DNA of 37,183 nucleotides from Ignavibacteria bacterium GWF2_33_9 (lineage in GTDB: Bacteria; Bacteroidota; Ignavibacteria; Kapaibacteriales; UBA2268). Shown here in pieces: positions 2,186 through 36,470 of the stretch. The stretch's first letter is position 1; each line of letters starts with the position of its first letter. The translations under genes were made by a program, and so were the position numbers. The notes under the pieces are model-generated. The model ran no database searches. It had not been told where the DNA came from and saw only the letters and a list, made by a program, of their open reading frames with translations. The stretch spans positions 1-37,183 of the forward strand of contig MHAC01000016.1 in the NCBI GenBank assembly GCA_001804565.1. Reading direction: 5' to 3'.

Positions 2186-4399
<2,214 letters not shown>

Positions 4400-6041: not shown

Positions 6042-7226
6042 TTAATTTATAATTTCACTAAATATAATTTGTGAATAGAGATTAGAAATCGTCTTGTAAT
6101 ATTCTAATTCATTTATTAGAATATTATCTAATATCTCATAATATAATTGATTGTCTAAATAATACTGTGTTAATGAGATATGTCCAAGTTTGTATGATTT
6201 TTCATTTAATTCGAGTTGCGAAAAATCAATTAATTCTTTTTGTTCGTCCATCGATTTTTTCAATTCAATAGATTTTTCGAAGAGTATTTTCTTTTTAATA
6301 GATAATCCTGACAAATAGGATTGTTTGTTTAAATTAATGAAATTAATATCACTCAATGCCTTAGGAACTTTGTTTGAGTTTTCAAAAAGAGGGATTGACA
6401 TCTGAAGTTGAATTCCTCTATATTCAAATTCAGGTTCATTTTCATAGCGATAACCTATATCAAAATTCGGCAGCCAACCACTTTTGGCCAAACTTAATTT
6501 TTTATCAAATAATTTCTCTTCATAGATTAATGTATTTAAATAATTATCTAAATCTTTAATTTTGAGAAATAATGAATCGAAGTTAGAAATAAGTTCAACT
6601 TGGAAATATTCGTTTAGATTTATTTCAAATGATTCGCCTCCATTTAAATTTATCAATTCGAATTTGAAAGAGCGTAAATTTAATTTCGCAATATTTAACT
6701 TGGTTTTATCAACCGAATAAGAAGATTTTACCTTATTTAATTCTAAAATACCAACATCTCCTGCATCAAATCTTGTTTGAATTGTATTTAACATATTTTC
6801 AGAAGAAATACTCCTTTGTTCTAACTCTGCCACCAGTTTAGTTTGATAAATATAGTTCATCAAAATATCCTGTGCATTTTCAAAAACTTGGAGCATTAAT
6901 TCTTTGAATTTATTTTCATAATATTTTATTTGGTAAGAAGCTATATCAGATTTTAGAAAATAAATACTAGGGAATTCAAATGGTTGAGAAATTGTTAATT
7001 CTTGTTTATTACCGGGAATGAGACCAATTCCAGATAAATATGAATATTCAATAGATGGATTTTGGGGTAATAAACCGGTTTTGCTTTCAAATTTAATTGA
7101 GTTTAATTGCTCTCTGTAAGCTTTAATTTCCAGATTATTTTTAATAATATTTCTCAGAATATCATTATAAGATTGAGAGAAGGCAATATTAAATGAAATT
7201 AGAATTAAAAATATATATTTGATCAT
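6042..7226 (-). CDS. TolC-family outer membrane efflux protein of metal-type RND operon
   Basis: Signal peptide and coiled-coil OEP architecture; overlaps the end of the RND pump gene by 4 bp. Confidence 0.85.
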   Translation of the reverse strand: MIKYIFLILISFNIAFSQSYNDILRNIIKNNLEIKAYREQLNSIKFESKTGLLPQNPSIEYSYLSGIGLIPGNKQELTISQPFEFPSIYFLKSDIASYQIKYYENKFKELMLQVFENAQDILMNYIYQTKLVAELEQRSISSENMLNTIQTRFDAGDVGILELNKVKSSYSVDKTKLNIAKLNLRSFKFELINLNGGESFEINLNEYFQVELISNFDSLFLKIKDLDNYLNTLIYEEKLFDKKLSLAKSGWLPNFDIGYRYENEPEFEYRGIQLQMSIPLFENSNKVPKALSDINFINLNKQSYLSGLSIKKKILFEKSIELKKSMDEQKELIDFSQLELNEKSYKLGHISLTQYYLDNQLYYEILDNILINELEYYKTISNLYSQIIFSEIIN

Positions 7227-10200
7227 GATATTTTCCTATTTAATATTCTACTTTTTTGAGTAATATAATATACAATTGGTAGTACGATTAAGTTCAAAAA
7301 TGTGGAACTAAACAGTCCTCCAAGGATAACTTCAGCCATCGGACTTTGAATCTCATTTCCGGGCTTATCACCTGCCAGAACTAATGGAACCAACGCTAAT
7401 GCAGCAGTGAGAGCAGTCATCAATACGGGATTTAGTCTATCCAAAGAGCCTTGAATAATTGCATCTTTTAATGCTAATCCATCGTCTATGAGTTTGTCAT
7501 AGCGTGAAACCATTAAAATACCATTTCTGGTAGCTATCCCAAAAAGAGTTATAAATCCAATTAAAGATGGTATGCTTATGATTGAGGATGAGAACCAAAT
7601 AATAATAATTCCACCAATCAAAGCTAATGGTAAATTTATTAAAATTACTCCAGCAGTAAGATAATTCTTGAATTCCTGATAGAGAATAAAGAAAATTAAA
7701 AGAATGGAAACAATTGAAACTAAGATTATAATTCTAGAAGCATTTTCCTCACTTTCGAATTGACCTCCATATTCCACATAATAATTATCAGGCAGCTCTA
7801 TTTTAGTATTAACTACCGATTTAATTTCGTTAACAGCACTCCGTACATCCCTATCTGCAACATTTGCAGAAATAATAATTCTTCTTTTTACATTTTCACG
7901 GTTTATTACATTAAGTCCTTTTGCAGAACGAATCTCGGCAATATCTCCTAATTTAATTATTTCTCCCTCTCTGGTATCTACCGGAACATTTTTCAAAGTT
8001 AGATAATCATCTCTATATTCTTTTTTTAACCTTAAGAGCAAATCGAAAGATTTTTCGTTTTCAAACACATTTCCAATAATTTCGCCTCCTAAAGCAGTAT
8101 TGATGATTTCATTAAAATGACCAAGAGAAATTCCATATCTGTTTAGAACTTCACGTTTAGGAATAATGTGAATTTGAGGTACCGACATGATTTGTTCAAC
8201 ACTCAGGTCTGCAACACCATCTATTTCAGAAATTTCAGTATTGATTTTGTTCGCAATTGAATACATCAAGTCCAGATTCGTGCCAAAAAGTTTAATAGCT
8301 ATGCTTGTTTTCACACCGGAAATAATATGATCTATTCTATGACTGATTGGTTGACCAATATTGAAAACGATGCCTGTTATTGATGATAATTTACTCCTCA
8401 CGTCTTTCAGAAATTCCTTTCTGGATCTGTTGGTTAATTTAAATGGGGTTTCAATTTCAGAGATACTGGAGCCGAAGGAATGTTCAGAAAGTTCTGCCCT
8501 TCCGGTTTTTCGGGCTGTAGAGATAACTTCCGGAATGGATAAGAGTGCTCTTTCTGTTTGAACGCCAATTTTATCAGATTCTTCTAGTGAAATACCGGGT
8601 GTAGTAGCAACATTAATTGTTAGCGAGCCTTCGTTGAAAACCGGTAGAAAATTTCTTCCGAGAAATTTAATTGAAATTAATGAACCTATTAATATTATTG
8701 CAACAGTAACGATAATTTTCTTTCGATGCGAAAATGATAAAGAGAGTACTTTCAAATAAACTTTCTTAAGAAAAGTGATTAAGAAATTATCGCTTTTTTG
8801 CCTGCCAAGTAGTTTTTTGTCGGTTAATAAATAACTGCATAATACGGGAGTAATCGTAATCGAAACAATTAATGAGGCAAATAATGAAATCACAAATGAA
8901 ACACCAAGAGGTTGCAGCATTCTGCCTTCCACACCACTAAGGAAGAATAATGGCAGAAAAGCAATAATAATAATGAACGTTGCTTTAATTATGGATGCCC
9001 TAATTTCCATTGATGCATCATAAACTACTTTGAAAGTGCTTTGTTTGAGTGAATCAGGTAAATAATAATTTTCTTTTAATCTCTTGAATACATTTTCCAC
9101 ATCAATAATTGCATCATCCACAAGAGAACCAATTGCTATGGCCATTCCGCCCAAACTCATAGTATTTATACTAAGTCCAAAGATTTTCATTATAATTATT
9201 GTAGTCAGTAATGAAAGTGGTATGGAGATAATAGAAATAATTGTTGTCCTAAAGCTCATTAAGAAAATGAATAGAATAATTATTACAAATATTGCACCTT
9301 CTAATAAAGCATTCTGGACATTGTCAATTGATGTGTTAATAAAATTGGCTTGATGAAAAGGTTCTGTCTTGAATTTAATATTTCCGGGTAAATTCTTTGA
9401 AAGATCTTGAATATTAGCAGTAATTTTTTTAGTTAAATCAATTGTGCTTACTCCTGATTGCTTTGTAACAGTAATTATAACTGCAGGTTTTTCATTATAC
9501 GATGCTTTGTTTAAGCTCTGAGCAGGCATGATTTGGACTTCTGCAATGTCCTTTAACCTAACAGGAAATCCATCAATCATTTTAATAACACTCAGGGCAA
9601 TTTCTTCGGGATTTGTAGTTCTCGATAGACCTCTTATGATATATTCATTTCCGAATTGATTGAAAAATCCTCCATTAGAATTTACATTCATATTTTTGCA
9701 AGCTTCAAGTATATCATCAACAGAAATTCCATAAGTTTGCATTTTCTGGGCATCAATTAATATCTGAAATTGCTTTTCATCACCGCCCATAACGGAAACT
9801 TGTGCAACTCCTCCCAAAGCAAGTAATCTTGGTTTCACATTCCAATCTGCAATTGTACGTAAATCCATTTGCGAAAGGGAATCCGATGTCATGGCAAATA
9901 CGAATATTTCTCCAAGCAAGGATGTTTGTGGTGCAAGTATTGGTGCAGATGTACCTTCGGGTAATTTACCGGAGATCTGCGATAATTTTTCGGTAACGAT
10001 CTGCCTGTCTCTGAATACATCTGTTCCCCAGTCAAATTCTACCCAAACAATAGAAAATCCCATTGTAGAATTTGATCTTACTCTACGCACACCCGGTGAA
10101 CCATTCATGACAGTTTCTATCTGAAAGGTTATCATTTTTTCAACTTCTTCTGGGGCCATACCTTGGGCTTCTGTCATTACTACAACGGTAGGTGCACTCA

Positions 10201-10327
10201 AATCAGGGAAAATATCTACGTCCATGTTTGAAGAAATTACTATACCGCTAATCATTACTATTATCCCGAAGATCAATACAGGAATTTTATTTGTTAATGA
10301 GAAATTTAAAATTTTATTTAGCATCAT
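7223..10327 (-). CDS. Efflux RND permease, CusA/CzcA (heavy-metal efflux) type
   Basis: 1034 aa with 12-TM RND layout. TM4 'AIGSLVDDAIIDVENVFKRLKEN'; TM10 'GIATRNGILMVSRYD'; 'RLNPVLMTALTAALALVPL'. Confidence 0.93.
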   Translation of the reverse strand: MMLNKILNFSLTNKIPVLIFGIIVMISGIVISSNMDVDIFPDLSAPTVVVMTEAQGMAPEEVEKMITFQIETVMNGSPGVRRVRSNSTMGFSIVWVEFDWGTDVFRDRQIVTEKLSQISGKLPEGTSAPILAPQTSLLGEIFVFAMTSDSLSQMDLRTIADWNVKPRLLALGGVAQVSVMGGDEKQFQILIDAQKMQTYGISVDDILEACKNMNVNSNGGFFNQFGNEYIIRGLSRTTNPEEIALSVIKMIDGFPVRLKDIAEVQIMPAQSLNKASYNEKPAVIITVTKQSGVSTIDLTKKITANIQDLSKNLPGNIKFKTEPFHQANFINTSIDNVQNALLEGAIFVIIILFIFLMSFRTTIISIISIPLSLLTTIIIMKIFGLSINTMSLGGMAIAIGSLVDDAIIDVENVFKRLKENYYLPDSLKQSTFKVVYDASMEIRASIIKATFIIIIAFLPLFFLSGVEGRMLQPLGVSFVISLFASLIVSITITPVLCSYLLTDKKLLGRQKSDNFLITFLKKVYLKVLSLSFSHRKKIIVTVAIILIGSLISIKFLGRNFLPVFNEGSLTINVATTPGISLEESDKIGVQTERALLSIPEVISTARKTGRAELSEHSFGSSISEIETPFKLTNRSRKEFLKDVRSKLSSITGIVFNIGQPISHRIDHIISGVKTSIAIKLFGTNLDLMYSIANKINTEISEIDGVADLSVEQIMSVPQIHIIPKREVLNRYGISLGHFNEIINTALGGEIIGNVFENEKSFDLLLRLKKEYRDDYLTLKNVPVDTREGEIIKLGDIAEIRSAKGLNVINRENVKRRIIISANVADRDVRSAVNEIKSVVNTKIELPDNYYVEYGGQFESEENASRIIILVSIVSILLIFFILYQEFKNYLTAGVILINLPLALIGGIIIIWFSSSIISIPSLIGFITLFGIATRNGILMVSRYDKLIDDGLALKDAIIQGSLDRLNPVLMTALTAALALVPLVLAGDKPGNEIQSPMAEVILGGLFSSTFLNLIVLPIVYYITQKSRILNRKIS

Positions 10328-25065: not shown

Positions 25066-25097
25066 AAAAGGGAAGTTATTTACAACTTCCCTTTTTT
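25066..25097. terminator. Bidirectional terminator between convergent rpoC and antiporter gene
   Basis: AAAAGGGAAGTT ATTTAC AACTTCCCTTTT followed by TT; the right arm encodes the antiporter C-terminus. Confidence 0.85.
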
Positions 25098-26234
25098 CTT
25101 ATAAAATAATTTTGCAATTTTATTTGAAAAATAGGAAGTTGCAATTCCAATTACGGCAAGTATCAAAATATAAAGCGAGGCAATCGGAGCAATTGCGAGT
25201 GACATATGTTGAGAAATTGCAATCGAAAACTCTCCACGATTCACAATACCCAAACCAGCTATAAGTGACTTACGCTTAGAAAGCCCGAAAATCCTGCCGC
25301 CAATAATTCCTGTTAGTATTTTCCCAAGAATTGATAAAATCACAATTGCAATAAGAGGCCAGAGAAATTGTGTAAAATTAGGGAATATGAAATGAATTGA
25401 TGAACCGAAAATCAGGAAGAAGTAAGAAACTGTAATATCTCTAATTGGTACAATGAGCGATTCCACTTGATAAGATTTTCCGGATTCAGCAACAATTATA
25501 CCTACCAGGAATGCACCAAGTGCTTCGGAAAGTCCAAGTTCTTTCGTTACCCCAGAAGCAAATATGACAAAACCGATTACCATAATCGTGAGAATTTCAT
25601 CCTGCAAATATTTATCAATAAATGAAGACAATTTCTTTTTAATCAAAAATGAGAAGAGAATTGCTGAAATTATTACTAAAAATATCTTAAATAATATCCA
25701 AAAAGTAAGTGAAATATTTGGCATGGCTCCAACTGAAAATGCCGTAGCAAATGCAATGATTATTGGTGCTACCATATCTTCAAATACCATTAAACCAAGG
25801 ATAAATTCTGTTTCCGAATTGGCCATCCTATGCTCATCGATGATTATTTTAGTAGTAATTGCCGATGAACTTGCATAAGCAACTCCTGCAAGAGTAAAGG
25901 ATACTATGAAATTAAATCCGAATAATGACAGTACGAGAAATATTAATAAAAAATTAAAAGCTATATCAAGAACGCCCCCTATCCACACTTTTTTGGCTAT
26001 GTTCAATACTTTGCTTAAATTGAATTCCAAACCTAAGAAGAAGAACAAAATAACAATCCCAATTTCTCCAAAAATAGCAATATTGGAACCCAGTGGCAGC
26101 AATTCGGAAACTATCACACCGGCAAAAATATAAAGTAAAAGCATCGGGATTTTGAATAATTTCCCGATAAATCCTGCTACAAAAAGAGCAATTCCGGTTA
26201 GACCGAATATCAATAGGAATGAAACATCATGCAT
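25080..26234 (-). CDS. Monovalent cation:proton antiporter (CPA2, KefB/KhtU-like)
   Basis: Polytopic Na+/H+ exchanger fold: 'EIGIVILFFFLGLEFNLSKV', 'GEFSIAISQHMS'. Confidence 0.9.
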   Translation of the reverse strand: MHDVSFLLIFGLTGIALFVAGFIGKLFKIPMLLLYIFAGVIVSELLPLGSNIAIFGEIGIVILFFFLGLEFNLSKVLNIAKKVWIGGVLDIAFNFLLIFLVLSLFGFNFIVSFTLAGVAYASSSAITTKIIIDEHRMANSETEFILGLMVFEDMVAPIIIAFATAFSVGAMPNISLTFWILFKIFLVIISAILFSFLIKKKLSSFIDKYLQDEILTIMVIGFVIFASGVTKELGLSEALGAFLVGIIVAESGKSYQVESLIVPIRDITVSYFFLIFGSSIHFIFPNFTQFLWPLIAIVILSILGKILTGIIGGRIFGLSKRKSLIAGLGIVNRGEFSIAISQHMSLAIAPIASLYILILAVIGIATSYFSNKIAKLFYKKKGKL

Positions 26235-26240
26235 AATGGA

Positions 26241-26726
26241 TTATTCAGATATATTGAACAATTCTTTGAATCTTCGTGTTTGTTCTCTTGAACCCACAAC
26301 AACCAATGTATCATCCAGTAAAAGTTGAGTGTCCGGTGCTGGATTGATTATTGTATCATCATTTCTGATGATGGAAATAATTGTTATACCTGTTTTTTTT
26401 CGAATACCACTTTCCAGAATTGATGAATTCACCAAACTTGAATTTTCAGTCAAATTTACCCATTCAATCGAAAGTTTATCAATGAGTAATTGTTTCTGTT
26501 TTTCTTGTTCAGGTTTGAAATAATTACCCATCAAAATCGAACCAAGCAAATTTGCTTCTTCTTCATTAAGGAGAAAGTGAAATTTCGCATCGTCTTCCGG
26601 ATCATCGAACAGGAAGATTTCTCTTTTACCGTTAATAAGTACAACTACCGATAAATAGGCTCCATTAACAATTTGAAAAGTGAATTTTTTCCCGATTCCG
26701 GGCAATTCCATTTCTTTAAAAATCAT
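26241..26726 (-). CDS. Antiporter regulatory subunit with TrkA-C/RCK_C domain (KhtT-like)
   Basis: 'ELPGIGKKFTFQI' N-terminal part plus C-terminal 'TGITIISIIRNDDTIINPAPDTQLLLDDTLVVVGSREQTRRFKELF'; 6 bp from the antiporter gene. Confidence 0.85.
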   Translation of the reverse strand: MIFKEMELPGIGKKFTFQIVNGAYLSVVVLINGKREIFLFDDPEDDAKFHFLLNEEEANLLGSILMGNYFKPEQEKQKQLLIDKLSIEWVNLTENSSLVNSSILESGIRKKTGITIISIIRNDDTIINPAPDTQLLLDDTLVVVGSREQTRRFKELFNISE

Positions 26727-26902: not shown

Positions 26903-27625
26903 ATGAATTATATTAATGGAGAAAATATGGCAAAAGCAGCTCAAATGAAAGAAAATGCTAAGATGGAACTTAAGGATAAGATTCTTAATACTTCAATTGA
27001 ACTTTTTAGAACAACAGGTCTGAAAAGCGTGAATACTGACCTTATTGCTAGTGAATGCGGTATTAGCAAAAAGACACTTTACGAAGTATTCAATAGCAAA
27101 GAAGAATTAATTTCTTATGTGATAACAACATCTTTAGGTAAATTAGAAGCAGATTTGAAAGCTTTGGCTGAAGAAATTGAAGAGAAGCATGTTTCTGACT
27201 TTGGAGAAGTGTTTCATCATTTAATGCATGGCGTGAATAAAATCATCATTGTTTTCTCCAAACAATTTCTGACTGACCTAAAGAAATACTATCCTAATTT
27301 ATGGGTAGATATACGTGAATATAAAAAAGAAAGAATTAGAAATTACTTCGGATTGATTTTTAAAATTGGTCAGAAGCATGGGTATATCCGTAAAGATATT
27401 AATCCAGAACTTGCGTATTATATTCACCATTATATTTTGGATAATATTGTTTCTCCAGAAGTACTCGCAGAATTACCACTCAGTTCAAAGGACGTCCTGA
27501 ATGGGATTTACAATATATTGCTTTTCGGAATTCTCACTGAAAAGGGTGTTGAAAAATCGGATTTCAGTACAAAACTAAATAAAATGTACGAACATGGCAT
27601 CAACCGAAATATGAATGAATCTTAA
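26903..27625 (+). CDS. TetR/AcrR family transcriptional regulator
   Basis: N-terminal HTH: 'ILNTSIELFRTTGLKSVNTDLIASECGISKKTLYEVFNSKEELISYVI'. Alternative start at 26927. Confidence 0.9.
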   Translation: MNYINGENMAKAAQMKENAKMELKDKILNTSIELFRTTGLKSVNTDLIASECGISKKTLYEVFNSKEELISYVITTSLGKLEADLKALAEEIEEKHVSDFGEVFHHLMHGVNKIIIVFSKQFLTDLKKYYPNLWVDIREYKKERIRNYFGLIFKIGQKHGYIRKDINPELAYYIHHYILDNIVSPEVLAELPLSSKDVLNGIYNILLFGILTEKGVEKSDFSTKLNKMYEHGINRNMNES

Positions 27626-27727: not shown

Positions 27728-29149
27728 ATGTTTCAAACTCAATCAAAATGGTTGTTTTTTCTCATCCTTATAGTTGCAGTTTCATCAATTAATCAAATAC
27801 AGGCAAGGCAAATGACCCTTGACAGTGCTATTAATTATGCTATAGCAAAAAATAATGATGTGAAACTCGCAAAACTGGAATTGGAAAAATCAAAATTTGC
27901 CATAAAAGAAGCATTTGGCTATGCTTTGCCATCGCTTGACTTTACAGGACAATTTTCGCATTTTATCGAAAAACCGAAAATGGCATTTCCTGATTTTAAT
28001 GCTATGCTGAACAATTCAGTGTATGGAGTTATGTTCAAAGAAAATTTACTTCCTGAAGATGATTCCAAGTTTTTACCAATGGATTTTGTATTGCAATCTT
28101 TTGCTTTGGCAAATAGTTACAATGCACAACTTTCACTTACGCAAGTGCTTTTTAGTTCTACAGTTTTTAAAGGAATTTCATCAAGCGGAATTTATAAAAA
28201 TTTAGCAGAGGAAGCACTTTACGGGAAAATATCTGCAGCAGTTCTTAATACTAAAAGAGCCTTTTACGGTGCCTTGCTTTCCAAAGAAGTGTTAAATATC
28301 ACAAAAGCAAGTTTCGAAAATGCGCAGCAAAATTTTAAGAGCGTGAAAGCATTACAGTCGCAAGGAATGGTTGCTGAATTTGATGCAATTCGTGCAGAAG
28401 TGCAAGTGGAAAATATTCGACCTGTGATTTTGCAAATGCAAAATAATTATGAAGTAGTTCTGAATAATCTAAAATTAGTTATGGGTATGGATCAATCAGA
28501 AAATCTTGAATTGACAGGGGACCTGGATTATTCTGAATTGCCTGTACCAGACAGACAGGAAGCTATTGCTGCTGCTACAAAGAATAACTTTGATTTGAAG
28601 ACATTGCAAACAAAAAGAGATTTTGATGAAGCTCTAATAGATTTGGATATTTCGACTTATTATCCGACACTTGCCGCATTCGGGAATTATGCATTTGCAG
28701 GTTCTGCTGATGATTTCAATTTTCAGAATTATCGTCAATCAATGGTTGGACTTAATTTCTCCATTAATCTTTTCAATGGATTCCGCACGACTCAAAAGGT
28801 ACAACAAGGTCATATCAATGTGATGAAATCTGATGAATCTGTGAATCAATTGAAAGAGTTTATCATTTCACAGATAACTACCAAAATAAGTGAAATAGAA
28901 AGAATTAAGAGCAATCTGGAAGCACAGGAAAGAAACATCACTCTCGCCCAAAAGGCTTATAATATATCCAATTTGCGTTACAAAGAAGGTACCGGCAATC
29001 AGTTGGAAATTGAAAATGCTGATTTGGCTATGCGTCAGGCCAAAACAAACAGACTACAGTCAGTATTTCAGTATATTTCCGCTTATGCAGAGCTCGAAAA
29101 TCTGATGGGTAATCTCGATGCAAAATACAGAAAAATTAAAATTGATTAA
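27728..29149 (+). CDS. TolC-family outer membrane protein (second RND system)
   Basis: Signal peptide; OEP repeats, e.g. 'MTLDSAINYAIAKNNDVKLAKLELEKSKFAIKEAFGYALPSLDFTGQFSH'. Confidence 0.92.
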   Translation: MFQTQSKWLFFLILIVAVSSINQIQARQMTLDSAINYAIAKNNDVKLAKLELEKSKFAIKEAFGYALPSLDFTGQFSHFIEKPKMAFPDFNAMLNNSVYGVMFKENLLPEDDSKFLPMDFVLQSFALANSYNAQLSLTQVLFSSTVFKGISSSGIYKNLAEEALYGKISAAVLNTKRAFYGALLSKEVLNITKASFENAQQNFKSVKALQSQGMVAEFDAIRAEVQVENIRPVILQMQNNYEVVLNNLKLVMGMDQSENLELTGDLDYSELPVPDRQEAIAAATKNNFDLKTLQTKRDFDEALIDLDISTYYPTLAAFGNYAFAGSADDFNFQNYRQSMVGLNFSINLFNGFRTTQKVQQGHINVMKSDESVNQLKEFIISQITTKISEIERIKSNLEAQERNITLAQKAYNISNLRYKEGTGNQLEIENADLAMRQAKTNRLQSVFQYISAYAELENLMGNLDAKYRKIKID

Positions 29150-29169: not shown

Positions 29170-30204
29170 ATGAAAAAGACAATATTCTTAATTATAATTG
29201 CATTATTTGCTGGTCTGACTTTGCAATCTTGCAAAAAGGAAAATAAAGTAGTTTCCAAAACCATGGAAGAAATCCAAAAAGAAAATGGTGTTCCTGTAAA
29301 ACTAACTAAAATTGAAACTCAGGAATTGACTATTCCCTTGAAATATATGTCCACTTTGGAAGGAATTAAACAAACTACAGTTACTGCTCCTGTGGCAGAC
29401 AATGTTGACTTATTTAAAGGAAAAGTGGGCAAAGTAGTTAAGGAAAAAGATGTAGTTGTTACTTTCCCTACAGATAATCCTGCATTGCAATTCGAGCAAG
29501 CAAAATTATCTTTTGAAAATTTCAAAAAAATGTATGAAAGAATGTCTGCATTACTAGCCGGAGGAGAAACATCACAGCAAAATTACGATAATATTGAAAC
29601 TCAGTATTTGGTTGCAAAAAGAAATTATGAATCCCTCAAGCAGATGCTTTTTGTGGAAGCACCCATAAGTGGTACTATTGTTGAAAAATTTGTTGATGAA
29701 GGTTTCAAAACAAAAAGTGGAGACAAACTTTTCACTATTGCGCAGATAGACAGAATGAAGGCGATTTTCTGGGTAAGTGATGAAGAATTGATTTATATCA
29801 AAAACGGTATGCCTGTTCAAATTACCAAAAATGATAAAGTTTATAATGGCAGAATTTCCGAAGTTGCTCTTGCACAGGATGAAATGAGAAAAGCATTCAA
29901 AATTGAAGCAGATTTTCCAAATCCAAAGCGTGAATTGAAAGTAGGCATGACTGTGGAAATTCAATTTGATTCATACAAAAATCCTTCTGCTATAGTAATA
30001 CCAAGAAGCTCTATCGTTGTGAAAGCCGGTAAAAGTTATGTGTTTGTGTCTGATGGAAGTAATGCACAGGAAAGAGAAATAACATTAGGTAAAACTATTG
30101 GGGAAATGGTGGAAATCACTTCCGGACTGAATGTTGGAGATGAACTAATTACCGAAGGTGTAAGTATTTTGACTAGTGGTGCAAAATTAAATATAAAACA
30201 ATAA
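29170..30204 (+). CDS. RND periplasmic adaptor subunit (lipoprotein)
   Basis: Lipobox 'TLQSCKK'; 'VEAPISGTIVEKFVDEGFKTKSGDKLFTIAQIDRM' lipoyl half-motif. Confidence 0.92.
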   Translation: MKKTIFLIIIALFAGLTLQSCKKENKVVSKTMEEIQKENGVPVKLTKIETQELTIPLKYMSTLEGIKQTTVTAPVADNVDLFKGKVGKVVKEKDVVVTFPTDNPALQFEQAKLSFENFKKMYERMSALLAGGETSQQNYDNIETQYLVAKRNYESLKQMLFVEAPISGTIVEKFVDEGFKTKSGDKLFTIAQIDRMKAIFWVSDEELIYIKNGMPVQITKNDKVYNGRISEVALAQDEMRKAFKIEADFPNPKRELKVGMTVEIQFDSYKNPSAIVIPRSSIVVKAGKSYVFVSDGSNAQEREITLGKTIGEMVEITSGLNVGDELITEGVSILTSGAKLNIKQ

Positions 30205-30214
30205 CGGAGTAAAT

Positions 30215-33200
30215 ATGAGAATAGCAGACATTGCCGTAAAAAGACCGGTTCTTGTATCCGTAATTGTAATTGTATTCGTTCTGTTCGGATTTATTGCGTT
30301 CAGAACACTTAATTTGAACTTATTTCCGGATGTGAAAATACCGTTTGTTACGGTACAATGTATTTATCCGGGTGCCGGACCGAAAGAAATCGAATCTCTT
30401 GTTACCAAAAAGATAGAAGATGTTATCACAACGATTGAAGGTGTAGAAGCAATTGATTCATATTCACTTGATGGTGTTTCCATTATTGTAATTGAATTTG
30501 GATTAGGCAAAGATGTAGATGTAGCAAATCAGGAAGTGAAGGACAAGATTGATCAGATTGTAAATAATTTACCGACAGATGCGAAGAAGCCGATTATTAC
30601 TAAAGTTGACTTCCGTGCATTCCCAGTTGCAAACTTAATTTTAAGTGGTGATGCTTCTCCGGTGGATATGTATGAATTTGCAGATAAAGTTGTAAAAAAT
30701 AAATTATCGCAGGTTGCTGGTGTTGCAAATATTACATTGGATGGTGGACAAGAAAGAGAAATTCAAGTTACTCTTTCGGGTAAGACAGTTTATGAAAATA
30801 TGATGTCTCTGCCTGCTTTTATGGGAATTTTGGGTCAACAGAATTTTGATATTCCCGGAGGAACATTCGAAATCGGGAATCAGGATTATTCTGTTCGCTT
30901 GAAAGGACAATATGATTCCTTGAATACAATTTTGGAAACAGAAATTCCGACCGCATTTGGTGTTAAAAAAATCAGAGAATTGGCAAAAGTCGAATTTGCT
31001 GGCAAAAAAGTAGCTGCAAAGACTATGTTCTATGATGTGAAAAATAACATCAAGTATGAAAATGCGATATTGTTAGGTCTAATTAAGAGTCCCGATGGTA
31101 ATGTAGTGGAAGTTGTGAAAGCAGTAAAGGAAAAATTACCCGAAATTTTGCGTGAGCTGCCTAAAGGTATGGAATTGAAAGTAGTGAATGAATCTGCTGA
31201 TTTTGTGGAGAGTACTTCCTCTGATACTTTAAGTAATATATATCTTGGTATCTTACTCACCGCATTAGTATTGCTTTTCTTCCTGCATGATATTCGTTCT
31301 ACAATTATTGCCTCGATCACAATGCCTGCATCAATCATTTCTGCTTTCGTTTTATTCCAGTTCGCAGGATTGGATTTGAATATGATGTCGCTAATGGGTA
31401 TTTCTGTAACTGTGGGTGTGCTCGTTGCGAATGCTGTTGTGATTATCGAAAATATATTCCGCTTCAAAGAAATGGGAATGCCTATCAAAGAGGCTGCGAT
31501 TAAAGGTACAAATGAAGTGTTTGTGGCGGTGCTTGCATCTACAATGACTAACTTGGTTGTATTTATTCCATTAGCAAATCTGAGCAGTACTGTAGGTCAA
31601 TTCCTTAAAGCACTTGCTCTTTCCGCTACATTTACTACACTCTTTTCGCTTATTTATTCCTTTACTTTAACTCCTATGTTGAGTTCTCTCTTATTTTCGG
31701 ATAAAGCAAAAGAAAAAGGAAAATTTGCTAAGTTCTTATCTGCTCATATTGATAAATATTTGATTGGTCTCTACGGTAAAACCTTACGAATAATTTTGCG
31801 TAATAAGAAACTAGCCATAGCAACTGTAGTGAGTGCAATTATCTTATTTATAGTTGTGCTTATGGGATTGGGACCAAAAATCGGTTTTGAATTTCAACCA
31901 ACATTCGACCAGGGCGTGATAACAGCAAAAGTTGAACTACCAACAGGATATAATGTTGAATCTACTGAACAAGTAATTAAGCAGATTGAAGATAAGATTA
32001 AGCATTATCCGGAAGTGACAGAAATTGTTTCTTCAATTGGGAAATCCAGCAATGTTGATATTGGTACAAACCTGGCAACAGTAAGCATATACATAGTTGA
32101 CAAGAAAGAAAGAACAATTGGAATTGATGAAATGGTTATTAAAGTTACCGATGAACTATCTTCTATACCAAATGCGAAAATACAAGTATTTTCTGGTGAA
32201 GGTGGCGGACAAGGTGGTACTGCTCCTGTAGAATTCTTCATTTTGGGTCAAAATTCCGTAAAATTGCAAAGAATTACCGATGAACTATACGATTCATTAA
32301 AAACAATACCCGGACTAATCAATTTCGAACAATCCACCAGGGAAGGTAAACCGGAAATGACTGTTTATCCAAACCGCAGCAAACTTGCTGATGTTGGTTT
32401 ATCAGTATCGGAACTTGCAATGTCATTACGCCTTTCAGTGGAAGGTATGGCTAGTTCTAAATATAAATACGAAGGTGAAGAATACGATATTACAGTGAAA
32501 TTGAATGATGATGAAGTTAATTCTCCAGAAAAAATCAGTCAAATACCGATTGCAACACGTGCAGGCGTATTCAAGATTTCCGATTTAGCTGATATTAAAT
32601 TCACTCCCGGGCCGACTAAGGTACTTCACCGCAATAAATATATAACGATTAAGTTTTCAGGTGCCCCCGGAGCAGGTGTACCTCTTGGGGATATTACCTC
32701 CGAAGTGGAAAAAAGAATTGCAAAATTCAATTTGCCAAAAGGTTATCAATTCGCATGGGGTGGGTCTGCAAAACTTTTCAAACAGATGGTAAGCGACTTA
32801 TCATTTGCATTTATGGTCGGCATTTTGTTGACATATTTCCTTATGGCAGCAATTCTGGAAAGTTATATACAACCGCTTTATATTATGATTACTATTCCGA
32901 TGGGTATGATTGGTGTAATCACATTCTCTTATTTAACAGGCACTACGATGAGTATAACTGCAATGATGGGTGTGATTTTGCTCACCGGTATTGTTGTGAA
33001 TAATGCGATTTTGCTGCTTGACTTTGCTAATCAGATGATTAGGGAAAAAGAGATGAACGTGCATGATGCATTAATAGAATCAGGTGAGACAAAATTGATG
33101 CCGATCCTGATGTCCAACGCTGCATTGGCACTTGGTGTACTTCCTCTTGCACTTGGAATTGGTGATGCAGGTGTGGAAATGCGTACTCCTTTAGGAATTG

Positions 33201-33328
33201 TTACAATAGGCGGTATTTTTGCTTCAACGTTACTTACATTGTACGTAATTCCGGCACTTTACCTAATTTTTGCAAAATTGAAAAAGAAAAATAAAAATTC
33301 AAATATAGATTTGATTGCTGAAAATTAA
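30215..33328 (+). CDS. Efflux RND permease (HAE-like) with non-canonical TM4/TM10 relay residues
   Basis: 1037 aa RND layout: 'MRIADIAVKRPVLVSVIVIVFVLFGFIAFRTLNLNLFPDVKIPFVTV...'. TM4 'VTVGVLVANAVVIIENIFRF'; TM10 'GIVVNNAILLLDFANQM'. Confidence 0.95.
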   Translation: MRIADIAVKRPVLVSVIVIVFVLFGFIAFRTLNLNLFPDVKIPFVTVQCIYPGAGPKEIESLVTKKIEDVITTIEGVEAIDSYSLDGVSIIVIEFGLGKDVDVANQEVKDKIDQIVNNLPTDAKKPIITKVDFRAFPVANLILSGDASPVDMYEFADKVVKNKLSQVAGVANITLDGGQEREIQVTLSGKTVYENMMSLPAFMGILGQQNFDIPGGTFEIGNQDYSVRLKGQYDSLNTILETEIPTAFGVKKIRELAKVEFAGKKVAAKTMFYDVKNNIKYENAILLGLIKSPDGNVVEVVKAVKEKLPEILRELPKGMELKVVNESADFVESTSSDTLSNIYLGILLTALVLLFFLHDIRSTIIASITMPASIISAFVLFQFAGLDLNMMSLMGISVTVGVLVANAVVIIENIFRFKEMGMPIKEAAIKGTNEVFVAVLASTMTNLVVFIPLANLSSTVGQFLKALALSATFTTLFSLIYSFTLTPMLSSLLFSDKAKEKGKFAKFLSAHIDKYLIGLYGKTLRIILRNKKLAIATVVSAIILFIVVLMGLGPKIGFEFQPTFDQGVITAKVELPTGYNVESTEQVIKQIEDKIKHYPEVTEIVSSIGKSSNVDIGTNLATVSIYIVDKKERTIGIDEMVIKVTDELSSIPNAKIQVFSGEGGGQGGTAPVEFFILGQNSVKLQRITDELYDSLKTIPGLINFEQSTREGKPEMTVYPNRSKLADVGLSVSELAMSLRLSVEGMASSKYKYEGEEYDITVKLNDDEVNSPEKISQIPIATRAGVFKISDLADIKFTPGPTKVLHRNKYITIKFSGAPGAGVPLGDITSEVEKRIAKFNLPKGYQFAWGGSAKLFKQMVSDLSFAFMVGILLTYFLMAAILESYIQPLYIMITIPMGMIGVITFSYLTGTTMSITAMMGVILLTGIVVNNAILLLDFANQMIREKEMNVHDALIESGETKLMPILMSNAALALGVLPLALGIGDAGVEMRTPLGIVTIGGIFASTLLTLYVIPALYLIFAKLKKKNKNSNIDLIAEN

Positions 33329-33337
33329 TTATAAAAA

Positions 33338-34522
33338 ATGGACATAAAAAAAATGAACGTACCATTATTAGATTTGAAATTACAATATGCTCAGATTCAA
33401 GAAGAAGTTGAGCAGGAGATTTTAAGAGTATCACGTTCGCAAATGTGCATACTCGGAAAAGACGTTGAATCATTCGAAGAAAATGCTGCAAAATATCTTG
33501 GCGTAAAGCATGCCATTGGTGTTTCCAGCGGGACTGACGCACTTTTAATGGGCTTGATGGCTTATGATATCGGTCCTGGAGATGAAGTGATTTTGCCGAC
33601 ATTTTCGTTTTTTGCAACTGCGGGAGTAGTGGCAAGAACTAATGCTACACCTATTTTCGTGGATAGTATTGCAAATACATATAATATTGATCCAAAAGCT
33701 ATTGCTGCAAAAATTACTGAAAAGACAAAAGCAATTATTCCTGTTCATCTTTTCGGTCAAGCAGCTGAAATGGACGAAATAATGGCGATAGCACACAAGC
33801 ATAATATACCTGTAATTGAAGACGGGGCTCAATCTTTCGGAACTCAGTACAAAGACGGTAAATTTGCAGGTAGTATTGGTGAAATAGGATGTTTTTCATT
33901 TTACCCATCTAAAAATTTGGGAGCATTTGGTGATGGAGGTCTGGTTACGACTAATGATGATGTATTAGCCGAGAAATTGCGCCAGATGCGTAATCACGGA
34001 ATGTATCCTAAGTATTTCCATAAATTTATTGGGGGTAATTTCAGATTGGATGCAATTCAGGCTGCAGTGCTGAATGTGAAATTAAAACATCTCGAAGATT
34101 GGCACAAAGCTCGCCGAAAAAATGCAGATTTATACAGGAAATATGCTCAAAAGGAAGGTTTGGAAATTGCTAACAATGTTCAGAATTTTATTAACAGCAA
34201 TCAGATTTATTTACCGGAACCTATTTACGCAGAAACCGGCATTAACAATAATCATATTTACAATCAATTTACAATTAGGATTGCACGCAGAGATAAGATT
34301 AAAGATTACCTGTCAGCAAATGGTATTGGATCGGATATATATTATCCTGTACCATTCCATCGCCAGGAATGTTTCTCTTATTTGAACAATCCTGATAGGG
34401 ATTTTCCAAATGCAAATATGCTAGTAAGTGAAGTTCTTTCTCTTCCTATTTTCCCGGAATTAACTGAAGAACAAATTGCTTACACAGTGGAAAAACTTGC
34501 AGAAGCAATAAATATAACATAA
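33338..34522 (+). CDS. DegT/DnrJ/EryC1/StrS family aminotransferase
   Basis: 'VSSGTDALLMGLMAYDIGPGDEVILPTFSFFATAGVV', 'PVIEDGAQSFGTQYKDGKFAGSIGEIGCFSFYPSKNLGAFGDGGLVTT' PLP-Lys region. Confidence 0.95.
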   Translation: MDIKKMNVPLLDLKLQYAQIQEEVEQEILRVSRSQMCILGKDVESFEENAAKYLGVKHAIGVSSGTDALLMGLMAYDIGPGDEVILPTFSFFATAGVVARTNATPIFVDSIANTYNIDPKAIAAKITEKTKAIIPVHLFGQAAEMDEIMAIAHKHNIPVIEDGAQSFGTQYKDGKFAGSIGEIGCFSFYPSKNLGAFGDGGLVTTNDDVLAEKLRQMRNHGMYPKYFHKFIGGNFRLDAIQAAVLNVKLKHLEDWHKARRKNADLYRKYAQKEGLEIANNVQNFINSNQIYLPEPIYAETGINNNHIYNQFTIRIARRDKIKDYLSANGIGSDIYYPVPFHRQECFSYLNNPDRDFPNANMLVSEVLSLPIFPELTEEQIAYTVEKLAEAINIT

Positions 34523-34640: not shown

Positions 34641-36470
34641 TTATTCACTACCTGTGAGTATTACATCAGTAGTCATTTCTTTACCCTTGCGAAGGAAAGT
34701 TACTTTTATTTTGTCCCCGGGTTTAGATTCACGCAGAAAGAAAGTGAAATCGTGCAAATTCATGATTCCGGTATCATTAAGTTTTGTGATTATATCATCG
34801 CCCTGCAAACCTGCTTTTTCGGCAGGACTTCCCGGAGAAGCACCGGAAATTTTCATCCCTAAAGGTTCTCTATCGAAATTGGGGACAATGCCGAATTTCA
34901 CTTTGCTGCCACTTCTGTTTTCTCCATGAGCAGGAGATTTCTCAGATACTTTATGAAATGGAGGTCGATTGTCCAGATTGCCAAATTTTTGGACTGCAGC
35001 ATCCAGAAAATTAATAATTGTTTCCATTCCGTCAAAATTGATTTTGTCAACGTCATCACTTGGTTTATGATAATCCAGGTGTACACCGGTGAAGAAGAAT
35101 ACTGAAGGGACATTTTTCAGATAGAATGCTGTTTGGTCACTTGCACCAAGTGGTGAATCGCTTTTATTCAGTGTTAATACTGAATCTGCGGCATCCAATT
35201 CATCGAAAATCGGTTCAAATGCAGGTGATGAACCAGTGCCCATCAGATAAATTGAATTATCATGAAAGCGGCCAACCATATCCAGATTAATCATCATTGC
35301 AATATTCTCAGGAGCAATAATTTTCTGATTAACAAATGCATTAGAACCGATTATACCAAGTTCTTCCGAAGTAAATGCAACAAAAACAAGAGAACGCTTC
35401 GTTGGATTTTCAGCAGCATAACGAGCAAGTTCAATCACTGCAGAAGTTCCCGATGCATTATCATCAGCACCATTATGAATTTTGGGAGTTTTGCTCTGAT
35501 ACATTGAAGTTGGTCCGCCCCATCCGAGATGGTCGTAATGGGCTCCCACAACAATATATTCATTTTTCAGTGTTGCATCGGTTCCTTCCACCATACCGAA
35601 AACATTGTCAGTTTTAGCAATTTTGTCCTTCAATTGTACTTTTATATAAATTTTTGAATTAGGAATATCGAAGCTGTTAGGTTTTTTTGTTTCCATAATC
35701 TTCATTTCGGTAGGGTATAGCGACCTACGAGGGAAATATTCGGAAATTTTAGTTCGATTCACTTGAATTGCAAGCAGACCGGTATTCCTTTCGAAGCGGT
35801 CTTTTTCGAGTGGTTCGAAAACACTAGCGGAATCACCGTTAATTTTCACAAATATTATTCCTTTAGCGCCATGATCACGTGCATTCGTTGCCTTATAACG
35901 ATAAGATTTGTAAGGTTCAAAAGGATCATCTTTCATTTCACCATTCGGGGAATGAGTGAGAATGATTACAATTTTGTCCTTTACGTCAATACCTTCATAA
36001 TCGTCATATTTCAAATCTTTGGAAGAAATACCAAATCCACAGAATGCTAAAGGAGCTTCTAATTCACCATCATCGCTAATACTTAACGGCAACCAGTCAC
36101 TTGTCAGATCCCATGACTTTCGCATTGGACGAGACATTTCAATTGGAACGCCGGGTTTAGGGATGATTACATTGAAGTAAACTTCATTTTTTTCTCCAAG
36201 TTCATATCCAATCGGCACTTCCAATTGCTGCAAGTAACTTCCATTTATGGGTTTAAGTCCAAATTCTTTAAATTTATTAAGAATATAATCACGTGCTTTA
36301 TCCATTCCGGGAGTACCTGGAAAACGACCTTCTAATTCATCACTTGCTAAATATGTGAGATGTTCTTTTGCTGCAGTATAAACTAGAGATTTCTCGGTTT
36401 GTGCAAATAAATTCAGCGTTGATACCAGAATTAAAATTTGCACAAAATTTGTTAAGCGTTTAAAATTCAT
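34641..36470 (-). CDS. Secreted M28 family zinc peptidase with C-terminal PDZ domain
   Basis: Signal peptide; 'VVGAHYDHLGWGG', 'HNGADDNASGTSAVIELAR', 'AFTSEELGIIGS'; PDZ 'MKISGASPGSPAEKAGLQGDDIITKLND'. Confidence 0.92.
   Translation of the reverse strand: MNFKRLTNFVQILILVSTLNLFAQTEKSLVYTAAKEHLTYLASDELEGRFPGTPGMDKARDYILNKFKEFGLKPINGSYLQQLEVPIGYELGEKNEVYFNVIIPKPGVPIEMSRPMRKSWDLTSDWLPLSISDDGELEAPLAFCGFGISSKDLKYDDYEGIDVKDKIVIILTHSPNGEMKDDPFEPYKSYRYKATNARDHGAKGIIFVKINGDSASVFEPLEKDRFERNTGLLAIQVNRTKISEYFPRRSLYPTEMKIMETKKPNSFDIPNSKIYIKVQLKDKIAKTDNVFGMVEGTDATLKNEYIVVGAHYDHLGWGGPTSMYQSKTPKIHNGADDNASGTSAVIELARYAAENPTKRSLVFVAFTSEELGIIGSNAFVNQKIIAPENIAMMINLDMVGRFHDNSIYLMGTGSSPAFEPIFDELDAADSVLTLNKSDSPLGASDQTAFYLKNVPSVFFFTGVHLDYHKPSDDVDKINFDGMETIINFLDAAVQKFGNLDNRPPFHKVSEKSPAHGENRSGSKVKFGIVPNFDREPLGMKISGASPGSPAEKAGLQGDDIITKLNDTGIMNLHDFTFFLRESKPGDKIKVTFLRKGKEMTTDVILTGSE

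Follow-up and report, generated by a model that had tools for sequence, protein, structure and literature searches.

A conserved family of tripartite RND permeases without the aspartates of the AcrB proton relay

Here we describe an intact RND permease, encoded by Ignavibacteria bacterium GWF2_33_9 within the 37,183-nucleotide stretch of DNA that was analysed (contig MHAC01000016.1; the window), in which neither transmembrane aspartate of the AcrB proton relay is present. Judged from alignments and trees, the loss of D407 (AcrB numbering) appears not to be accidental; it is a conserved family trait across two deep bacterial groups. In AcrB, K940 bridges D407 and D408 in the L and T states, while in the O state the aspartates are protonated and the two repeats disengage (PMC4359379, PMC5546932). 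R971 lies close to E414 and N415, is electrostatically tied to D407, and in ordinary pumps is thought to block proton leak, not to carry protons (PMC4359379). AcrB is inactivated by D407A/N, D408A/N, K940A and R971A (PMC4359379, PMC5546932), and D407N or D407A alone leaves it dead (PMC5546932). Pumps that lack these aspartates should accordingly be unable to run the AcrB protonation cycle, and because D407 is missing from a conserved family, its members would be driven differently or not by ions at all.

Results

The permease and its operon

The open reading frame at 30215-33328 encodes 1037 amino acids and a full-length ACR_tran domain (732 bits over residues 4-1019, curated Pfam cut-off 28). 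The cut-off of no named NCBIfam RND subfamily was reached among NF033617, NF000282, TIGR00915 and TIGR00914, the best score being 664.6 against a cut-off of 1250. Regulator, channel, adaptor and permease genes form a self-contained cassette:

26903-27625, forward strand: TetR-type regulator, first gene of the cassette (Pfam TetR_N, 7.5e-11; 18 of 21 loci have a gene of this cluster adjacent to the operon)
27728-29149, forward strand: TolC-like outer-membrane channel (Pfam OEP, 1.1e-48; 21 of 21 loci)
29170-30204, forward strand: RND periplasmic adaptor, or membrane fusion protein (TIGR01730 RND_mfp, 164.8 bits, curated cut-off 94.9; 21 of 21 loci)
30215-33328, forward strand: RND permease without equivalents of D407, D408 and K940 (Pfam ACR_tran, 1.4e-219)

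The original prediction of an intact, full-length permease with TolC and adaptor partners is therefore borne out by the reading frame, the Pfam match and the operon. Adaptor and TolC-type channel stand beside the permease in every one of the 21 neighbourhoods, as in a tripartite pump, and each operon holds exactly one RND gene, not the two of the MdtBC type. The outer flanks of the operon vary.

Divergent from the operon, on the reverse strand, are genes for a sodium/hydrogen-exchanger-type antiporter and a TrkA-C protein (25080-26726), a pair kept there in three species of the genus. At the other end a DegT/DnrJ aminotransferase gene (33338-34522, forward strand) starts 9 bases past the RND gene and is not beside the cassette in other genomes; beyond it lies the gene for an M28-family peptidase with a C-terminal PDZ domain (34641-36470, reverse strand). 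In four genomes (L119, at 3612-4397 on the reverse strand, L122, L109 and L110) an enoyl-CoA hydratase-like gene sits directly 3' of the Asp-less RND gene, possibly a hint of a fatty-acyl type substrate.

By the NG86 method, dN/dS comes to about 0.10 and 0.045 in the two least saturated pairs (L009/L010 and L020/L023) and 0.04-0.15 for pairs with dS > 1, which are saturated; Asp-less RND genes are under strong purifying selection. Given full-length genes and these low dN/dS values, a purely regulatory role, one of the possibilities raised at the outset, is disfavoured, as is decay.

The relay positions

Alignment with AcrB of E. coli MG1655 (MAFFT) gives A, N, N, K and S in columns 407, 408, 940, 971 and 978. 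TM4 reads VGVLVANAVVIIEN, TM10 reads GIVVNNAILLLDF and TM11 contains KLMPILMS. The residues of interest, all on the forward strand, are as follows:

31235-31237, forward strand: N341, AcrB T343 (TM2); Asn in the clade, with Asp in one set of DD-K relatives from Bacteroidota
31427-31432, forward strand: A405-N406, AcrB D407-D408 (TM4; codons gcg aat)
31448-31450, forward strand: E412, AcrB E414 (cytoplasmic end of TM4); Glu in all Asp-less members
31550-31552, forward strand: N446, AcrB L449 (TM5); every member of clade A has Asn here
32999-33004, forward strand: N929-N930, AcrB K940-N941 (TM10; N929 codon aat at 32999-33001)
33092-33094, forward strand: K960, AcrB R971 (TM11; codon aaa); Lys in nearly all members without D407
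33113-33115, forward strand: S967, AcrB T978 (TM11; codon tcc)

The five substitutions first read by eye (D407A, D408N, K940N, R971K and T978S) are confirmed, and the canonical carboxylate relay is indeed absent, A405 and N406 occupying its place in TM4. E414 is kept, as had been stated, and is Glu in 60 of 60 aligned Asp-less sequences. VDDAII is preserved in the CusA-like pump that the window also encodes (7223-10327, reverse strand), and this pump holds good as the internal control proposed for it. None of the residues that characterise a proton-driven HAE-1 permease, namely a TM4 carboxylate (at least one Asp of the D407-D408 pair), the TM10 Lys (K940) and the TM11 Arg (R971), is found, the corresponding residues being A405/N406, N929 and K960.

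It had been suggested that an acidic residue might have been relocated within the membrane. This does not hold for the window protein: a scan of its 12 TM segments, with helix boundaries transferred from AcrB by alignment, revealed no Asp or Glu in any TM interior, and acids lie at helix ends (D337 and D861 periplasmic, E412 and D936 cytoplasmic). Nor is there a shared substitute acid for D407, because D337 is conserved only in Bacteroidota-like members, and a second Asp-less lineage, described below, has Asp at the AcrB-343 position instead. One distant Asp-less RND (L180, genome G685) has Asp at the position of AcrB N941 (VINDAI), possibly a relocated acid in a single lineage. At columns 343 (TM2) and 449 (TM5) the clade has Asn, and one set of DD-K pumps from Bacteroidota has Asp; both columns lie outside the classical relay since they are T and L in AcrB.

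The Asp-less state is conserved and arose at least twice on the tree

When 149 related genomes were searched, the best matches grouped at 44-65% identity, after which identity fell to about 33%, and 23 of 396 genomes drawn across the phylum have a member at E <= 1e-200. Asp is absent at both 407 and 408 in all 52 close homologues from the same phylum; when aligned, these have A, S or T at 407 (52/52), N at 408 except for one S, N at 940 (52/52), K at 971 in 49, and S or A at 978. Together with distant members from an Elusimicrobia MAG (L037) and related genomes, clade A comprises 58 aligned homologues from the Bacteroidota-like phylum and Elusimicrobia-type MAGs, with A, S or T followed by N in TM4 and N-N in TM10. 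The Bacteroidota-like affiliation is read from the RpoB of the window, whose nearest PDB matches are two RpoB chains of 1269 residues, and from the order of the genes. The supposition that the 'VAN...VNN' pair defines a conserved clade is upheld (support 100). Its membrane core varies unusually little at N406, E412, N413, N446, N929 and N930. Eight further relatives are also Asp-less at 407 and 408, one with R971 (L179) and one with Asp at 941 (L180). The equivalents of N415 and S481 are retained in Asp-less members, as is N941 outside L180, and Arg at 971 is kept in few (3 of 59, plus L179).

An independent second Asp-less lineage consists of two sequences (L123/L124), whose sister L129 is D-N-N-R-T at the five relay columns and so keeps Asp and Arg. 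Two changes are needed to explain the Asp-less state, on the branch to the main clade (support 100) and again in L123/L124, on trees computed by fast maximum likelihood in which some branches are long and phyla are partially sampled; R971K is found in both lineages. A plasmid search for named close homologues gave matches at most 32% identical, and the 14 that were fetched all keep D407; a scan of genome contigs returned two distant loci only. No report of an Asp-less RND pump was found in the full-text literature searched, whose coverage is partial, and novelty is provisional in that sense; we know of no structure of any member of the clade.

Loss of D407 goes with R971K

D-D-K is the pattern in 47 of the 138 RND sequences in the comparison, and many of the remainder have D407 together with N, A, C, S, G, Y or F at 408 and N, S or D at 940; N408 and N940 occur alongside D407 in, for example, 13 D-N-N sequences. 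Absence of the Asp pair and of the TM10 Lys had been presented as jointly odd. Because RNDs with D407 often carry N408 and N940, what is unusual is confined to R971K and the loss of D407, and D408N and K940N are ordinary. D407 is constant in all 78 compared RNDs outside the Asp-less groups. The states at 407 and 971 are paired: 76 sequences are D-R, 56 are Lys without D407, three are Arg without D407 and one is D-V (Fisher p ~1e-34 for the four-cell table, which omits the D-V case and ignores relatedness). We consider the tree to be better evidence for this pairing than the Fisher test. Base composition was rejected as the sole cause of the Arg-to-Lys change, as K is also present in a locus of 56% GC (L125); R8 stays Arg, and R418 stays Arg in Bacteroidota members, despite R971K. 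A plasmid of Leptospira noguchii (L160, 1031-4084) encodes, as the first RND of a tandem pair, a protein with the odd relay D-S-D-V-N, with Val at 971 and Asn at 978.

Structural model and known relatives

An AlphaFold2 model built from 34 sequences (pLDDT 82.9, pTM 0.74) has the full RND architecture with all TM helices. Foldseek matched it to AcrD, AcrB, CmeB, BpeF and OqxB (TM 0.83-0.91), an AcrB-like fold of 12 TM helices with porter and docking domains. In asymmetric AcrB entries, where chains A, B and C correspond to the L, T and O states, the highest score was that of chain C (0.89-0.90, against 0.83-0.85 for chain A), which for a single monomer prediction would weakly fit a core that is neutral, as in the O state with its protonated Asp.

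AcrB and AcrD share with the permease their fold (TM-score about 0.84-0.90), the ACR_tran domain, tripartite partners and E414, N415, S481 and N941, but are only 21-23% identical to it and have D407, D408, K940 and R971 where it has A, N, N and K. The closest solved structure by sequence is MdtB (9lyq; best phmmer match, 380 bits over full length), which is D-D-K-R-T and works in a mixed trimer, whereas the window operon has one RND. Single-Asp 'D-N-N-R-T' RNDs of Fusobacterium, Acetoanaerobium and Elusimicrobia (L155, L156, L129) share N408 and N940 with the permease but keep D407 and R971, and probably represent the evolutionary step that preceded loss of D407 in the second lineage. Fusobacterial RNDs were ruled out as Na+-driven analogues of the Asp-less pumps since they keep D407. 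The CusA/CzcA-type metal pump at 7223-10327 belongs to the same superfamily and genome, but scores above the TIGR00914 cut-off and keeps VDD.

Discussion

How might such a pump be energised? The explanation towards which we lean, tentatively, is that the permease works as a tripartite exporter whose site of energy coupling has been remodelled, and that a proton-coupled switch at E412-K960 would be reached through an Asn-lined path. Where the two membrane repeats meet, E412 (TM4) and K960 (TM11) form the only remaining pair of an acid and a base, and E414-R971 is the natural pair to remain because AcrB R971 lies near E414/N415 and is tied to D407. According to this model the proton motive force is still used, with E412-K960 acting as a switch near the cytoplasmic side, and access from the periplasm would be provided by a water path lined by N406, N929, N930, S478 and S967. 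With the neighbouring Asp gone the pKa of the lysine would be lowered, so that E412 or K960 could gain or lose a proton during the cycle. In favour of the model are the unvaried Glu at 414, the pairing of D407 loss with R971K in two lineages and the strong purifying selection. Against the model, ordinary pumps too have E414 and R971, a change of D407 to N or A is by itself fatal to AcrB, and Lys would not be a universal carrier, given that a few members keep Arg at 971.

Both the choice of ion and the titrating residue are what we infer from this arrangement. Na+-type ATP synthase c-subunits have Gln and Ser as Na+ ligands, and the organism's own c-subunit is without them and reads as H+-type. 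Its genome, a 94% complete draft, lacks NQR/Rnf, which just 4 of 53 relatives have, and a search of the same draft for an OAD Na+ pump was negative. Because of these three findings protons are the likelier currency than Na+. The genome also encodes a membrane pyrophosphatase (L167) with the motif GNTFKATAK.

The E412-K960 proton switch has two close rivals. The first, possible although somewhat doubtful, is that the system is an uncoupled tripartite conduit, in which substrate binding alone would drive the porter cycle and periplasmic compounds would be released through TolC passively or down a gradient. Single changes of this kind in the relay abolish proton-driven efflux by AcrB (PMC4359379, PMC5546932), the membrane interior holds no titratable acid, and the model lies nearest to the AcrB chains of the O state, where the Asp is neutral, although this last point is a weak one. 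However, a passive scaffold would not need a membrane core as unusually invariant as that of the clade, and R971K has recurred in two lineages.

Neutral Na+ sites are found in VcINDY and in the Na2 site of LeuT, and the second rival, which we think unlikely, is coupling to another cation, with an Asn/Ser-lined core binding Na+ (or K+) between the two repeats. Conserved neutral residues that offer oxygen ligands (N406, N929, N930, S478, S967, N341 and N446) enclose that core, which tolerates K or R at 971, three species of the genus have the antiporter pair upstream in divergent orientation, and Na+ use is recognised in other members of the RND superfamily (PMC8277102). The H+-type c-subunit and the lack of NQR/Rnf and OAD in the draft genome speak against it, as does the absence of N341 and N446 from the second Asp-less lineage; moreover, the nearby charged Lys would repel a cation.

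It is improbable that the permease is instead a mixed-trimer subunit energised by a normal RND partner. There is a precedent in MdtB2C, where a relay mutation matters more in MdtB than in MdtC (PMC4338810), and the genome encodes three other full-length RNDs elsewhere, but these are only 26-30% identical to the permease, and each of the 21 operons holds a single RND. A pseudo-pump or decaying gene without transport function, for which the loss of nearly every relay residue essential in AcrB might speak, is very hard to reconcile with genes that are full length in dozens of species, with low dN/dS and a conserved operon.

For the family as a whole, we regard it as evenly balanced whether this widespread clade of Asp-less tripartite RND pumps is ion-coupled without a membrane-embedded core carboxylate, through a site, either Lys/Glu or neutral and built on Asn, with two or more origins. 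The recurrent loss of D407 together with R971K provides evolutionary evidence that the two residues function together. Multidrug resistance depends heavily on RND pumps, whose energy coupling is attributed to protonation of the TM4 aspartate; with a natural Asp-less family under selection, it can be asked directly which elements of that coupling model are indispensable.
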